Below, piece after piece: positions 5,134 to 55,425 of a DNA stretch of 64,000 nt. The position numbers and the translations under genes are program-made. The notes beneath the pieces are model-generated. The model was given only the letters and a program-made list of their open reading frames with translations. It did not search any database and was not told the DNA's origin. Numbering within the stretch: position 1 is the first letter of the stretch; every line of letters starts with the position of its first letter. The stretch lies in assembly GCA_021847015.1 (NCBI GenBank), contig JAJZVW010000017.1, positions 1 to 64,000 on the forward strand. Reading direction: 5' to 3'. Source of the DNA: Pseudomonadota bacterium. GTDB taxonomy: Bacteria > Pseudomonadota > Alphaproteobacteria > Rhodospirillales > Magnetospirillaceae.

Positions 5134-6273
5134 TCATCCCTTGTCCGGGGCGTCGTCGGGATCGTCCGTCCCGGTGTGATCGTTCTTGCGGACCAGCCGC
5201 TTGGCCGCGGTCAGGCCGGCATGCCCGGCCATCAAGGTGCCCAATCCGGTCGCTGCGGCGAGGCCAACCGTGTCGGCATTGGCCTCAACCCCGAACTGCC
5301 GCATCGACGGCAGGCGTTCGTAGAAGGGGCCGCGATCCCAGAACCCTTCCTCGGAACAGCCGATGCAGCCGTGCCCGGACTTGATCGGGAACGAGACGCC
5401 GTCGTTCCAGCCGATGGTCGAGCAGGCGTTGTAGGTGGTGGGGCCGCGGCAGCCCATCTTGTACAGGCAGTAGCCGAGCCGGGCCCCCTCGTCGTCCCAG
5501 TTCTCGACGAACTGCCCGGCGTCGAAATGGGCGCGGCGGTAGCACTTGTCGTGGATGCGCTGCCCGTAGAACATCTTGGGCCGCAACTGGCGGTCCACCT
5601 CGGGCAGCCGGTCGAAGGTGAGCATGTAGCTGATGACGCCCGTCATCACCTCGGCGATGGGGGGACACCCGGGGACGTTGACCACCGGCACGTCGCGGAT
5701 CAGCTTGGAAACGGGAGTGGCCTTGGTCGGGTTGGGGGCGGCCGCCTGCACGCAGCCGAAGGAAGCGCAGGTTCCCCAGGCCACCACCGCCTTGGCGTGG
5801 CGCGCGGCCTCCTCCAGGCGGCGGTGGAACGGCCGTCCGCCGACGATGCAGTGCCAGCCGCCGTTGGCGAGAGGGGCGTTGCCTTCGACCGCCAGCAGGT
5901 AGCTGCCTTTGTAATCACGCATGATCTCGTCGATGATGGCTTCGGCCTGATCGCCGGCGGCGGCCATGATGGTGTCGTCGTAATCGAGCGAAATCATCGA
6001 CAGCACGACGTCCGACGTCTGTGGATGGCTGGAGCGCAGGAAACTCTCGGAGCAGCAGGTGCATTCCAGGCCGTGCAGCCACAGCACCGGCAGACGGGGC
6101 TTGGTTTCGAGGGCGTGGGCGACCCGGCCCGGCCCATCCGGCCCCAGCCCCATCATCACCGCCATCGACGCGCAGAAGCCGAGGAAGTCGCGCCGCGAGA
6201 CGCCGCGTTCGGCCATCGCCTCGGCCGTCGTCTTGAGCCGGGCGGCCGGGGAAGTGGGGGAGGGCTTCGGCAA
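5134..6273 (-). CDS. hupS: Uptake [NiFe] hydrogenase small subunit HupS, Tat-exported
   Basis: 379 aa. A twin-arginine signal is visible (SRRDFLGF near residue 27, then a hydrophobic stretch to about residue 50). The FeS cluster ligands are present: [10 protein letters not shown] at the start of the mature part, then Cys/His groups in [20 protein letters not shown] and [15 protein letters not shown]-terminal hydrophobic helix ([21 protein letters not shown]) should anchor it to the membrane. The start is a TTG at 6273, chosen because a strong AGGAGA lies 6 nt upstream. That ribosome site overlaps the stop codon of the chemoreceptor gene in front, so the two genes are probably cotranscribed. 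Confidence 0.93.
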
Positions 6274-48785: not shown

Positions 48786-48806
48786 AAGGCCGGACGAGCC
48801 GGCCTT
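48786..48806 (-). terminator. Predicted terminator of tRNA-Pro
   Basis: Perfect 8-bp stem AAGGCCGG/CCGGCCTT with a 5-nt loop, ending in TTT on the minus strand, 18 nt after the encoded CCA end of the tRNA remnant. Confidence 0.55.
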
Positions 48807-48824
48807 CGCGGAGCGGAAAGAGAT

Positions 48825-48870
48825 TGGTCGGAGCGGCGGGATTCGAACCCACGACCCCCAGTCCCCCAGA
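48825..48870 (-). other. Phage attachment site: 3' part of tRNA-Pro(GGG)
   Basis: On the minus strand the sequence from the anticodon loop (TCTGGGGGACTGG) through the T-arm (GTGGGTTCGAATCCC) and acceptor (GCCGCTCCGACCA) of tRNA-Pro is intact for 46 nt, then breaks off into unrelated sequence (ctttt on that strand). The 5' half is missing. A truncated tRNA 3' end beside phage genes is the usual mark of tRNA-targeted integration; the whole tRNA gene should lie at the far end of the prophage. Confidence 0.82.
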
Positions 48871-48989
48871 AAAGGGCGTGTCAAGTAACGTATTGAAACT
48901 AAACGCCTTTAAGAAACCGAAACGGTCTGGAATCGGCGAAAAATAGGCCCCGACTCACAGACAGAGTCACAGACACCCCACAAACGCGA

Positions 48990-50179: not shown

Positions 50180-50209
50180 AAAAAAGCCGCCGGGTGCGAC
50201 CCGGGCGGC
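50180..50209 (-). terminator. Rho-independent terminator on the minus strand
   Basis: GCCGCC-CGGGT stem with a one-base bulge and a CGC loop, followed on the minus strand by TTTTTT. It would end the lysis-cassette transcript after it has crossed the opposite-strand operon and before the 225-aa gene. Confidence 0.75.
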
Positions 50210-50217
50210 GGGACGGT

Positions 50218-50232
50218 GCGAACGACGTTCGC
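50218..50232. repeat. Phage palindrome GCGAACGACGTTCGC, copy 1
   Basis: A 15-bp palindrome with 6-bp arms. It differs by one base in the centre from the copies at 55426 and 58721. It lies 77 bp upstream of the minus-strand gene starting at 50141 and just in front of the plus-strand promoter of the 89-aa gene. Confidence 0.7.
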
Positions 50233-50251
50233 GCCGATGCACATTTTTCTG

Positions 50252-50279
50252 TTGACCAGATACACCGACGGTGTATCAT
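50252..50279 (+). promoter_or_regulatory. Promoter with palindromic operator of the acr/aca-like operon
   Basis: TTGACC at 50252-50257 and TATCAT at 50274-50279 are 16 bp apart. The spacer holds the perfect palindrome GATACACCGACGGTGTATC (50259-50277) that also covers part of the -10 box. A dimeric repressor bound there would block RNA polymerase; the HTH protein encoded second in the operon is the obvious candidate. Confidence 0.75.
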
Positions 50280-50330
50280 CACCTCATCAACGCGGCGGGA
50301 TGGCCCGCCGCACGAGGTAGGAGACCTGAG

Positions 50331-50600
50331 ATGACCACCACGCGCTACGCCGCCCTCGCCGCCGCCATCGATACCGATATCGCCGTCGCCCGCGTCATCG
50401 CCGCCGAGGTGGTGGACGGATTCGCGCTCGCCAACGACAGCGGCGCGGGGCGCCTTCACCTGGTGCGCGGACAGCGCGATGACCTGTTCGTCCGCCCTTC
50501 CCCCAGCGGCTTCACCGTCGAGTATTTCGGGTCCGAGGACACTTATTTCGCAGGCATCCTGGTGGCTCGCGCCATCGCCGCCCTCAACGCGCCGCGCTGA
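50331..50600 (+). CDS. 89-aa unknown phage protein; anti-CRISPR candidate by context
   Basis: Small protein with tagGAGacctgag before its ATG. The N-terminus is Ala-rich helical (TRYAALAAAIDTDIAVARVI), the C-terminal half is strand-like (GAGRLHLVRGQRDDLFVRPS, then FTVEYFGSEDTYFAGI). No family recognised. It is the first gene of a two-gene unit on the strand opposite to all late genes around it, behind a palindrome-controlled promoter and before an HTH protein. This is how anti-CRISPR genes with their Aca repressors are often arranged; the activity itself is only a hypothesis. Confidence 0.7.
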   Translation: MTTTRYAALAAAIDTDIAVARVIAAEVVDGFALANDSGAGRLHLVRGQRDDLFVRPSPSGFTVEYFGSEDTYFAGILVARAIAALNAPR

Positions 50601-50607
50601 TCGCCGT

Positions 50608-51051
50608 ATGACGAGCACTCCGTACGCACTTCTGGTTCATCTCTGCGGACTTTCTCTGCGGGAGGCCGCTGATTTTCACGGCGTGCGCCTGGACACGGTC
50701 AAATCATGGTCGGCCGGACGGCACCCGGTTCCGGCTGGGGCTATCGTCGAACTGCGCGGTCTTGTCCGCGCCATCGACCGGGCCGCCGCCGAGACGCTGG
50801 CCCTGGTCGCCGAACAGCGGGAAAGGGGCGACGCGGACAAACCCGGCTCCGAGCCGCCCGTCGTCTATCTCGGTCTAGCGTCCGATGATGCCGAGGCGCA
50901 GTCCCTCGGCTGGCCCTGCGCGGGCGCCCGCGCCGCCGTGCTCGCGCGCGTCGTCGCCGGACTTCCTGGCGATACGGCCGTCCGCATCGTGCCACGCGGG
51001 TCCTTCGCCGCGACAGCGGCAGCGCTCGACGCCACGCTCAAGAACCGGTGA
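50608..51051 (+). CDS. HTH regulator, Aca2-like in its N-terminus
   Basis: 147 aa. Residues about 8-50 form an Xre-type helix-turn-helix: LCGLSLREAADFHGVRLDTV, then KSWSAGRHPVP, with the W..GR..VP ending I associate with DUF1870/Aca2-type regulators. Aca proteins repress their own operon through inverted repeats at the promoter, which is present upstream. The C-terminal 80 residues are an extra domain not seen in short Aca proteins. It starts 7 nt after the first gene and its last 14 nt overlap the convergent lipase-like gene. Confidence 0.65.
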   Translation: MTSTPYALLVHLCGLSLREAADFHGVRLDTVKSWSAGRHPVPAGAIVELRGLVRAIDRAAAETLALVAEQRERGDADKPGSEPPVVYLGLASDDAEAQSLGWPCAGARAAVLARVVAGLPGDTAVRIVPRGSFAATAAALDATLKNR

Positions 51052-51649
51052 CGGGCGCCCCCAGCGCCGCGCAGTAGCGGGCGATGGCGTGATCCTCGAC
51101 CGGATCGTCCGGCACTCCGACCTGGATGAGCGGCGCGGGATGCCGCCAGTCCTCCCACAGCGGGACGGCGGGAGGCAGGTCGGGCACCACGTCGGCGCCA
51201 TGGCGATAGAGACGGCAGTGGACGTCGGTGGCATCCAGAACGGCGCCGCAGCCGGGCCCGATGCCGATCCTGGGCGCCCCGAAGGTAACGACGGCGCCGG
51301 GCGGCTTGCCCAGCCGCGTCCGGTGGACGGCCAGGGCAATCGCCAGCGCGCCGCCCAGGGAATGGCCGATGATTATCAGCGGGCGCCCGGCCGCCGCCAC
51401 GTCCGCGCGGACGGCGATGCCAAGCATGGCCTCCCAAATGCCGCGATGAACGGCGCCGATGACGGGGATACGAAGCGGCCCCACGTCCAGATCGGCGACG
51501 ACCTGATGGGCGTCATGCGTTCCCTGGAAGGCGATGACGCGGTGATCGCCCACATCTCGGACGATGGCGCGGGCCGCCCCCGCCGCGATATCGGGCGGCA
51601 GCGCGTAGGCATCCCGGCATAGGCCAGCGCATACGGCGGCGTCGATCAT
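51038..51649 (-). CDS. Class 3 lipase-like alpha/beta hydrolase of the phage
   Basis: 203 aa. The nucleophile elbow is IIGHSLGGALAIALA; an oxyanion-type VIAFQGTHD and a late VEDHAIARY (His) with Asp candidates complete a Lipase_3 pattern. It starts inside the stop of the small membrane protein gene (ATGA), so it belongs to the lysis cassette. It may help to break the envelope or alter the host surface; the substrate is unknown. Confidence 0.7.
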   Translation of the reverse strand: MIDAAVCAGLCRDAYALPPDIAAGAARAIVRDVGDHRVIAFQGTHDAHQVVADLDVGPLRIPVIGAVHRGIWEAMLGIAVRADVAAAGRPLIIIGHSLGGALAIALAVHRTRLGKPPGAVVTFGAPRIGIGPGCGAVLDATDVHCRLYRHGADVVPDLPPAVPLWEDWRHPAPLIQVGVPDDPVEDHAIARYCAALGAPVTGS

Positions 51650-51846
51650 CGGGACGCCATCTCCACCAGCCGCGCGAACAGGTCGGCCGCCACCAGGAAT
51701 GCGGTGACGATCCACATGCCGATTTCAGCCGCCATCAACGACGTTCCGATGGCGTCCCGCAAGCGCGTGTGGTTCGGAAGGATGGCGCCAGTCATCATCA
51801 TGAGGAAGCCGGCGACGATGCCGAGAAGGGCCGACACGCCGGTCAT
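51646..51846 (-). CDS. Holin-like small membrane protein
   Basis: 66 aa with two hydrophobic helices (SALLGIVAGFLMMMTGAIL; SLMAAEIGMWIVTAFLVAADL) separated by a short charged loop with NHTRLRD. Size, topology and position between endolysin and lipase with ATGA overlaps on both sides suggest a holin. No specific family recognised. Confidence 0.65.
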   Translation of the reverse strand: MTGVSALLGIVAGFLMMMTGAILPNHTRLRDAIGTSLMAAEIGMWIVTAFLVAADLFARLVEMASR

Positions 51847-52379
51847 GCCGCGAACTCCTGGCATCGCGCCAGCCATCCGGCCAGGAACCGCTCTTGGGAG
51901 GGATCCTCCACGGCGATGCGGCGGTAGAACTGCTCGCGGTGCGCCAATACGAACGCCGCCAGGCGTCCCGCATCGAGGCGGTTGGCGGCGGCGACGGTGA
52001 CGGGACCCAGCACGCCGTCCTCATCGGTCCCGGCCGCCCGCTGCAACGCCAGGACGGCGACAGACGGGCCGCTGGTGACGCCCCAATCCACCAGGAGGGC
52101 GCGGAGACCCATGCCGGCGATTTGGTCGAACCCTGGGCGCCCCCGCGGACTGATGATGGTGCCGCCGAAGCGGATGAACCGCCCGGCATAGATCGCCCGC
52201 GCCTCGCCCCGGCTCAGGGCCGCCACGTCCGCTGCCAAGCACGGATGGGTGCGCCACGTCGAGAGTGTCGCCAGGGTAATGCCGTAGCGCGTGGCCCCCC
52301 CCGCGTCGTCGGGATCGCAGGTGTAGGCGTCGCCGCCCTCGCGCCGGATCACGGCGGAGATGATGTCGTCGTCGGTCAT
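51843..52379 (-). CDS. Phage endolysin, GH108 family
   Basis: 178 aa. The N-terminus has the catalytic Glu in VIRREGGDAYTCDPDDAGGATRYGIT (in pieces), the EGG..D..D.GG.T.yGI pattern of glycoside hydrolase 108 (N-acetylmuramidase). The second half includes the PG_binding_3-like part (ALQRAAGTDEDGVLGPVT; FVLAHREQFYRRIA). It has no signal peptide, so release would need a holin. Confidence 0.88.
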   Translation of the reverse strand: MTDDDIISAVIRREGGDAYTCDPDDAGGATRYGITLATLSTWRTHPCLAADVAALSRGEARAIYAGRFIRFGGTIISPRGRPGFDQIAGMGLRALLVDWGVTSGPSVAVLALQRAAGTDEDGVLGPVTVAAANRLDAGRLAAFVLAHREQFYRRIAVEDPSQERFLAGWLARCQEFAA

Positions 52380-55336: not shown

Positions 55337-55425
55337 TTTGTTTAGTCCCTCAATCGCCGGGCGGCCGGCGGCCGCCGGCCTAGGCTTTCGCGCGAACGAT
55401 CGCGCGGGGCCTCAATGGCCCAGTC

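Follow-up and report, generated by a model that had tools for sequence, protein, structure and literature searches.

A prophage of an alphaproteobacterial host probably carries an accessory operon of the acr–aca type, in which a divergent Aca2-like regulator would act on DNA as well as on RNA; both this mode of control and the counter-defence role of the cargo are inferred. On sequence evidence, the operon demonstrably consists of a putative operator in the core promoter, covarying hairpins in the leader, a variable small gene and, in last place, a predicted two-domain regulator. The window (the whole analysed stretch of 64,000 nucleotides) corresponds to G000:C58:1-64000, that is, to contig C58 of a host genome (G000) of 3.59 Mb in 77 contigs. 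Within it, an 89-aa open reading frame (P0002; 50331-50600, plus strand), the candidate counter-defence cargo, is followed by a 147-aa frame encoding the Aca2-like HTH regulator (P0001; 50608-51051, plus strand). This is the arrangement claimed in an earlier, sequence-only reading of the window, which had described a short unknown gene and an HTH gene running against the late genes. The two genes oppose minus-strand lysis and tail genes, among them a class 3 lipase of the phage lysis cassette (51038-51715), the 3' end of which lies 14 bases within the HTH gene, and a GH108 endolysin recognized by family search (51843-52379). A terminator-like hairpin with a T-run on the late-gene (minus) strand (50181-50209) adjoins the operon promoter. 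At about 48800-48880 of the window, the remnant of a tRNA 3' half can be seen by eye on the minus strand and is probably the attachment site; ARAGORN did not report a whole tRNA there.

Cargo genes and the Cas9 systems of the host

Besides the host itself, no relative of the 89-aa protein was found in the viral contigs, phages, plasmids and 60 related genomes searched, and a comparison with the PDB returned one chance-level row (E 0.5). Pfam, PHROGs, PADLOC, NCBIfam and the PDB gave no convincing match to a known Acr; Acrs often lack homologues. The single-sequence structure model of the protein was poor (pLDDT 62.3). When the upstream regions of relatives are compared, one and the same leader is found in front of differing first genes. 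The 38 operon proteins collected fall into 27 unrelated clusters (blastp, E 1e-3), or 28 with the AcrIF8 control, in a set that omits near-identical copies (L016, L026, L035, L064, L066 and L067) and some second genes. Pfam recognized the AcrIF8 control in this set and nothing else, PADLOC gave no match, and PHROGs gave three weak matches, none with a function; none of the other cargo matched a known Acr or a defence-related family in these three collections. Ten genomes with the operon were compared for their CRISPR genes, and cas1 was present in only three of them and Cas9 in two. The operon class is therefore better termed counter-defence or accessory than anti-CRISPR, and there is no need to assume an anti-CRISPR function for the whole cargo family. 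An inferred counter-defence function of the cargo is nonetheless considered likely.

The host encodes two type II CRISPR-Cas9 loci with unrelated repeats (G000:C62:131061-136730 and G000:C30:19620-25709). Each contains cas1, Cas9, an array and a tracr anti-repeat beside cas9; cas2 was confirmed at C30 and, by eye, is seemingly present at C62. The two Cas9 proteins score 592.8 and 572.9 bits against TIGR01865, and the 36/30-base arrays have 17 and 23 repeats. The Cas9 of C62 aligned best with the 6kc8 Cas9, and its RuvC and HNH motifs are in place by eye. Both arrays contribute spacers matching the prophage contig: four of the 38 host spacers match C58 at 29-30 of 30 positions, while the next best match reaches 22, the same as the shuffled maximum (22), and about 1e-7 matches would be expected by chance under a simple model. 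Such spacers, which the sequence-only reading had suggested looking for, are thus present in the host. The C62 array has a perfect protospacer (30/30) on the minus strand at 55350-55379, followed by GGGACTA, and another (29/30) on the plus strand at 51698-51727, followed by GCCGCCA; the remaining two protospacers (29/30 each) lie on the minus strand at C58 62870 and C58 66625. Post hoc, a PAM-like N4C(C/T)A was seen after all four C62-array matches on C58 and C40, and a PAM-like N4AC after both C30-array matches. Three of the four protospacers on C58 have one mismatch each, which in two cases is located three bases from the PAM side. The spacer matches on contig C40 (26-27/30) fall within an IS1595-type transposase and were therefore not counted as targeting.

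Unless its Cas9 is blocked or silent, a cell is not expected to survive a perfect target with a PAM in a prophage that it carries, and self-targeting is a classical sign of an anti-CRISPR in a genome. The perfect target with a plausible PAM in this prophage therefore needs to be accounted for, for instance by an anti-Cas9. Self-targeting is no proof that the 89-aa gene is the anti-CRISPR, and the second operon of this host, on C40 (see below), is another candidate. That the 89-aa protein is an anti-Cas9 is an inference that approaches an even chance without reaching it, and inhibition has not been shown. The more general label given to it in the sequence-only reading, "candidate anti-CRISPR or other counter-defence gene", is fair, given the likeness of the regulator to Aca2 and the host spacers against the prophage; here too, inhibition is inferred.

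The competing explanation that survives best leaves the regulation unchanged and assigns the 89-aa cargo to another task, either against a different defence (such as restriction or abortive infection) or as a lysogeny accessory, with Cas9 inactive or inhibited by another gene. This remains a serious possibility, if one we rate below even. It would account for the seven of ten operon genomes that lack cas1, for the extreme diversity of the cargo and for the absence of Acr homology, but it must contend with spacers against the prophage in both type II systems of the host and with a C62 Cas9 whose aligned RuvC and HNH motifs look intact. The self-targeting could also be apparent only, with arrays and prophage derived from different strains or with Cas9 unexpressed. 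A mixture of strains is not excluded in an assembly of 77 contigs, and the single mismatches in three of the four protospacers would agree with it. This explanation is nevertheless unlikely, since the assembly has a completeness of 100 and a contamination of 0.59, the perfect protospacer bears the PAM-like CYA common to all four C62-array matches, and cas9, cas1, array and anti-repeat are found together at both loci.

Operator and hairpins of the leader

The promoter of the operon has a -35 box, TTGACC (50252-50257, plus strand), and a -10 box, TATCAT (50274-50279, plus strand); a TTGAC-like box is found at the equivalent position in most relatives. The putative operator is a 9+1+9 palindrome, GATACACCGACGGTGTATC (50259-50277), which is unique in the window even when three mismatches are allowed (0 expected from 100 shuffles). 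The sequence-only reading had taken a perfect palindrome of 19 bp to be the promoter spacer. The palindrome is indeed perfect, but the spacer measures 16 bp, and the palindrome fills it and runs over four bases of the -10 box. An inverted repeat in the core promoter is a trait of Aca2-type control (PMC9410906), and this operon has it.

The half-sites of the operator covary across 31 distinct 19-mers (set A9, to which L008 was added by hand and from which the duplicates L016 and L035 were omitted). ACAC-N5-GTGT is common to all of these operators with the sole exception of L008, and the outer positions co-vary as AT/AT, GT/AC, CT/AG and GA/TC. In the operator dyad, 90.3% of the pairs are paired and the covariation score is 0.167 versus 0.049 (0 of 500 shuffles). 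The observed value for cells with a double change was likewise reached by none of 500 shuffles; the count of pairs with a double change was equalled by 43 of 500, because only three operator pairs vary. With the pattern used to search for the palindrome, no site was detected for L009, L068, L008 or either of the L070 leaders. On inspection by eye, GTACAA-N5-TTGTAC is seen in L068, GTATC-N5-GATAC in one of the L070 leaders, and a palindrome with imperfect bases in L008.

Between the promoter and the start codon lie two RNA hairpins that were absent from the sequence-only reading and that recur in relatives. Hairpin 1 (50292-50311, plus strand) has an 8-bp stem, GCGGCGGG/CCCGCCGC, and the loop AUGG. 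Three bases separate it from hairpin 2 (50315-50327, plus strand), which has the stem AGGU/ACCU and presents the ribosome-binding site as its loop (AGGAG); the ATG of the 89-aa gene follows at 50331. A covariance model (R1) built from 13 leaders, including that of the window, with the structure specified by hand, recovers the leader in front of the HTH gene in 31 of the 38 sources, 30 of them at E≤4.2e-8 and L022 at 0.0044, and these matches include 13 distinct leaders outside the training set. The seven sources without a leader match are L003, L005, L014, L015, L020, L024 and L025, of which L020 and L024 end short upstream and L005 probably does not belong among the true relatives; a minus-strand match in L005 (13 bits) was ignored as weak. 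Since the window leader was part of R1, a second model (R2) was built without it on 19 further leaders, RNAalifold supplying the structure. R2 detects the leader of the window with 54.0 bits (E 7.3e-17), together with 13 of 18 other sources, and leaves L014, L015, L024, L025 and ZF40 unmatched. A search of Rfam gave a chance match only.

Pair counts were taken from an alignment that had been fitted to the structure with R1. In it, 95.2% of the cells are paired and nine of 12 pairs show double changes; none of 500 shuffles reached any of the measures, and slides gave at most 49.5% paired. From a 19-leader set (A10), RNAalifold recovered hairpin 1 with seven pairs, four of them with double changes, and did not predict hairpin 2, which was therefore tested without any alignment. 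A hairpin with at least four Watson-Crick pairs is present in 32 of the 34 distinct 22-base tails preceding the ATG, as against a mean of 3.7 and a maximum of 9 in shuffled tails. Furthermore, both hairpins are retained in L009 (L009:4242-4302), where they directly follow an upstream reading frame, and the 4.3 kb examined are without a palindrome of this kind; this is the pattern to be expected if the RNA is under selection of its own. For L014 (4470-4560), which R1 does not match, inspection by eye revealed a diverged leader, with a palindrome, CCAC-N5-GTGG, and an AUUGG-loop hairpin without a second hairpin.

It could be argued that the hairpins are mere by-products of GC-rich sequence and that the DNA operator alone is in control, all the more as hairpin 2 is short (4 bp) and was not predicted by RNAalifold on the independent set. 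This is very unlikely in view of the compensatory changes in nine of the 12 pairs, the excess of hairpin 2 in the tails over every shuffle and the retention of both hairpins in L009 without a nearby palindrome of this type. An Aca2-like operon under dual control remains very probable, with binding and repression by the regulator being inferred.

The Aca2-like regulator and its distribution

The resemblance to Aca2-type regulators that had been noticed for the HTH N-terminus of the 147-aa protein goes well beyond that terminus, and in the predicted fold it covers both domains. The Pfam model PF08965 (Aca2_YdiL, DUF1870) gives P0001 only 11.8 bits (E 0.28) and so does not meet its cut-off of 23.8 bits; the control, ZF40 Aca2, scores 89.9 bits. 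The same model matches nine of 15 members of the P0001 family at E≤1 (best 2.9e-4), and a PHROG HTH match to P0001 has an E value of 0.0014. The profile comparison with Aca families that the sequence-only reading had proposed for this protein supports a likeness to Aca2: a 15-member profile placed four Aca2 entries at the top of 177,635 distinct PDB sequences (E 0.004-0.099), and hhalign of 31 members against ten Aca2/DUF1870 proteins gave a probability of 95.4% (P 1.6e-8, 79 columns).

An AlphaFold model of P0001, based on 28 window and locus sequences, reached a pLDDT of 90.5 and a pTM of 0.81. Foldseek ranks 1-10 for this model are chains of SO3848, Aca2 and YdiL, aligned over 130-146 columns. 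VIA Z scores were 13.3 for SO3848, 11.4-10.6 for Aca2 and 10.0 for YdiL, and at most 8.0 for matches to the HTH only; these last rows (Aca1, Aca7, Aca10 and antitoxins; Z≤8) were left unused. The Aca2/YdiL fold comprises an N-terminal HTH, a long alpha4 and, at the C-terminus, a dimerisation domain in which alpha5-alpha6 are placed between two strands (PMC8434428), and the P0001 model agrees with this definition in the order of its elements. Judged by the model, P0001 is a structural relative of Aca2 and, by score, not a member of PF08965; it is therefore named "Aca2-like". A toxin-antitoxin system, with the 89-aa protein as toxin and the HTH protein as antitoxin and autorepressor, would suit a small gene pair in a single autoregulated operon and the HTH-only structural likeness to the antitoxins NatR, HigA2 and MqsA, but is very unlikely given an Aca2/YdiL regulator fold across both domains, the association of one regulator family with 27 cargo clusters, unlike a co-evolving pair, and the lack of any toxin-family match in Pfam, PHROGs or PADLOC.

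The leader was found 37 times (34 distinct tails) among phages, prophages and genomes of alphaproteobacteria, in every case with an HTH gene of the P0001 family at most 3 kb downstream. Some of these leaders were selected through the HTH protein; L056, L060, L063, L066 and L068-L071 were selected through the DNA pattern alone. Two DNA patterns yielded 14 and 7 stretches, which overlap, and R1 detects no leader in two of the stretches (L055 and L059). In 23 of the 37 places, the start of the HTH gene lies at most 7 bases from the stop of the first gene or overlaps it (16 overlap), which suggests translational coupling with the preceding gene. Relatives of P0001 are encoded at a second place in the host genome (C40:94693) and in two other genomes of the 61 searched, one of which (G059) has an additional doubtful match. 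Further relatives come from 14 viral contigs plus seven further ones, nine species-genome contigs (one of these, L033, apparently being the contig of G007, with which it agrees in length and position) and one Bradyrhizobium phage. When the whole class was scanned with R1, 12 of 385 genomes gave matches, in 13 places, two of them in G000. The second operon of G000 (G000:C40:94190-95121) has the leader and the HTH gene with a different, 145-aa cargo; its neighbours are a phage integrase, at a distance of about 1.3 kb, and an IS1595 transposase, which follows it. Extras of the R1 scan, L044-L046 (25-29 bits), lacked an HTH gene and were treated as chance (three of the other eleven were inspected), and a second weak match in L063 (16.6 bits), also without an HTH gene, was discarded.

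Two variants of the arrangement were observed in passing. Two leaders about 0.9 kb apart (L070:4539-4596 and 5404-5461, minus strand) precede a single HTH gene, as though both were served by the same regulator. The HTH proteins of L026, L027, L034 and L035 are 247-267 aa long and have a long additional C-terminal region of unknown function; L034 and L035 are Bradyrhizobium contigs.

Proposed control and comparison with known Aca2 systems

In the model inferred here, the unoccupied promoter would be strongly active at phage entry, and the cargo protein would be made. The regulator would build up as a dimer, occupy the palindrome and exclude RNA polymerase; it would also bind the hairpins on existing mRNA and stop ribosomes. 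By acting on both operator and mRNA, it would keep cargo output bounded even at many genome copies. The cargo itself would serve counter-defence, its likeliest target in this host being one of the two type II Cas9 systems or both. A wider proposal can only be made tentatively, as it stands below an even chance: an alphaproteobacterial phage regulon in which a shared palindrome and a two-hairpin leader are read as DNA and as RNA by a separate Aca2-like clade, providing a fingerprint for dozens of unrelated and hitherto undescribed counter-defence genes, with the 89-aa protein as a new anti-Cas9 that enables the prophage to survive in a host targeting it with both of its type II systems.

We know of no sequence common to anti-CRISPRs, which are therefore found through their neighbouring genes. 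The leader is a strong searchable landmark in this respect, constant while the cargo varies, and through it 27 clusters of proteins in alphaproteobacterial phages can be singled out as counter-defence candidates. A further suggestion arising from it is that combined control of DNA and RNA by proteins of the Aca2 type has an older origin and a wider spread than the Aca2 family delimited in Pfam. Matched operators, hairpins and regulators are available for binding tests, and with two self-targeting Cas9 systems the anti-Cas9 idea is directly testable in this host.

Aca2 reportedly exerts dual control on DNA and RNA, the RNA having stem-loops at the first gene's ribosome-binding site, a finding attributed to Birkholz et al. 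2024 (Nature 631:670). The leader in the window has stem-loops at this site. The dual-control model is taken over from that work, and the regulator clade, leader sequence and cargo differ. No description of this leader was found in the literature by title and abstract, with most subscription journals outside coverage. In its full-length fold, the regulator also resembles YdiL (1s4k) and SO3848 (2ox6), which are described as regulators without known function (PMC8434428).

The acrIF8-aca2 operon of Pectobacterium phage ZF40 (JQ177065) shares with the operon in the window an inverted repeat in the promoter spacer, an AUGG-loop hairpin, another hairpin where the ribosome-binding site lies, and a small gene followed by a two-domain HTH regulator; both operons adjoin and oppose lysis genes. 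The order in ZF40 is GTTCGCGATTGCGAAC in the spacer, TATAAT, UUCAUC, the AUGG-loop hairpin, the second hairpin with the ribosome-binding site, acrIF8 and aca2. In ZF40, however, the ribosome-binding site lies in the stem of hairpin 2, whereas here it lies in the loop; the operator sequence differs, the cargo is unrelated, and the distance between P0001 and Aca2 is too large for the Pfam model. Neither R1 nor R2 matches the ZF40 leader, and R1 gave no match on 12 other Aca2-type loci. The loci of the Aca2 homologues in Pasteurella phages CFP3, Pmp12 and Pm86 also have, in all three cases, a spacer inverted repeat and, in the leader, a hairpin whose loop contains GG. Pmp12 and Pm86 further resemble the window in a hairpin 1, here with mismatches, and in a second hairpin at the ribosome-binding site; their leader reads GAGC-AA-GGC-AAGGG-GCC-A-GCUC followed by a hairpin containing the ribosome-binding site. 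These Pasteurella phage loci differ from the window in operator and stem sequences, and their hosts are gammaproteobacterial. The loops AUCAG (L074) and AUUAG (L081) of Aca2-type leaders recur as identical strings within the P0001 family (L012 and L031). Known Aca2 loci were compared by visual inspection, and the AUUAG hairpin of L081 is absent from its minimum-energy fold. On this basis, known Aca2 leaders and the leader of the window type have anatomy and loop in common, and for the most part not primary sequence.
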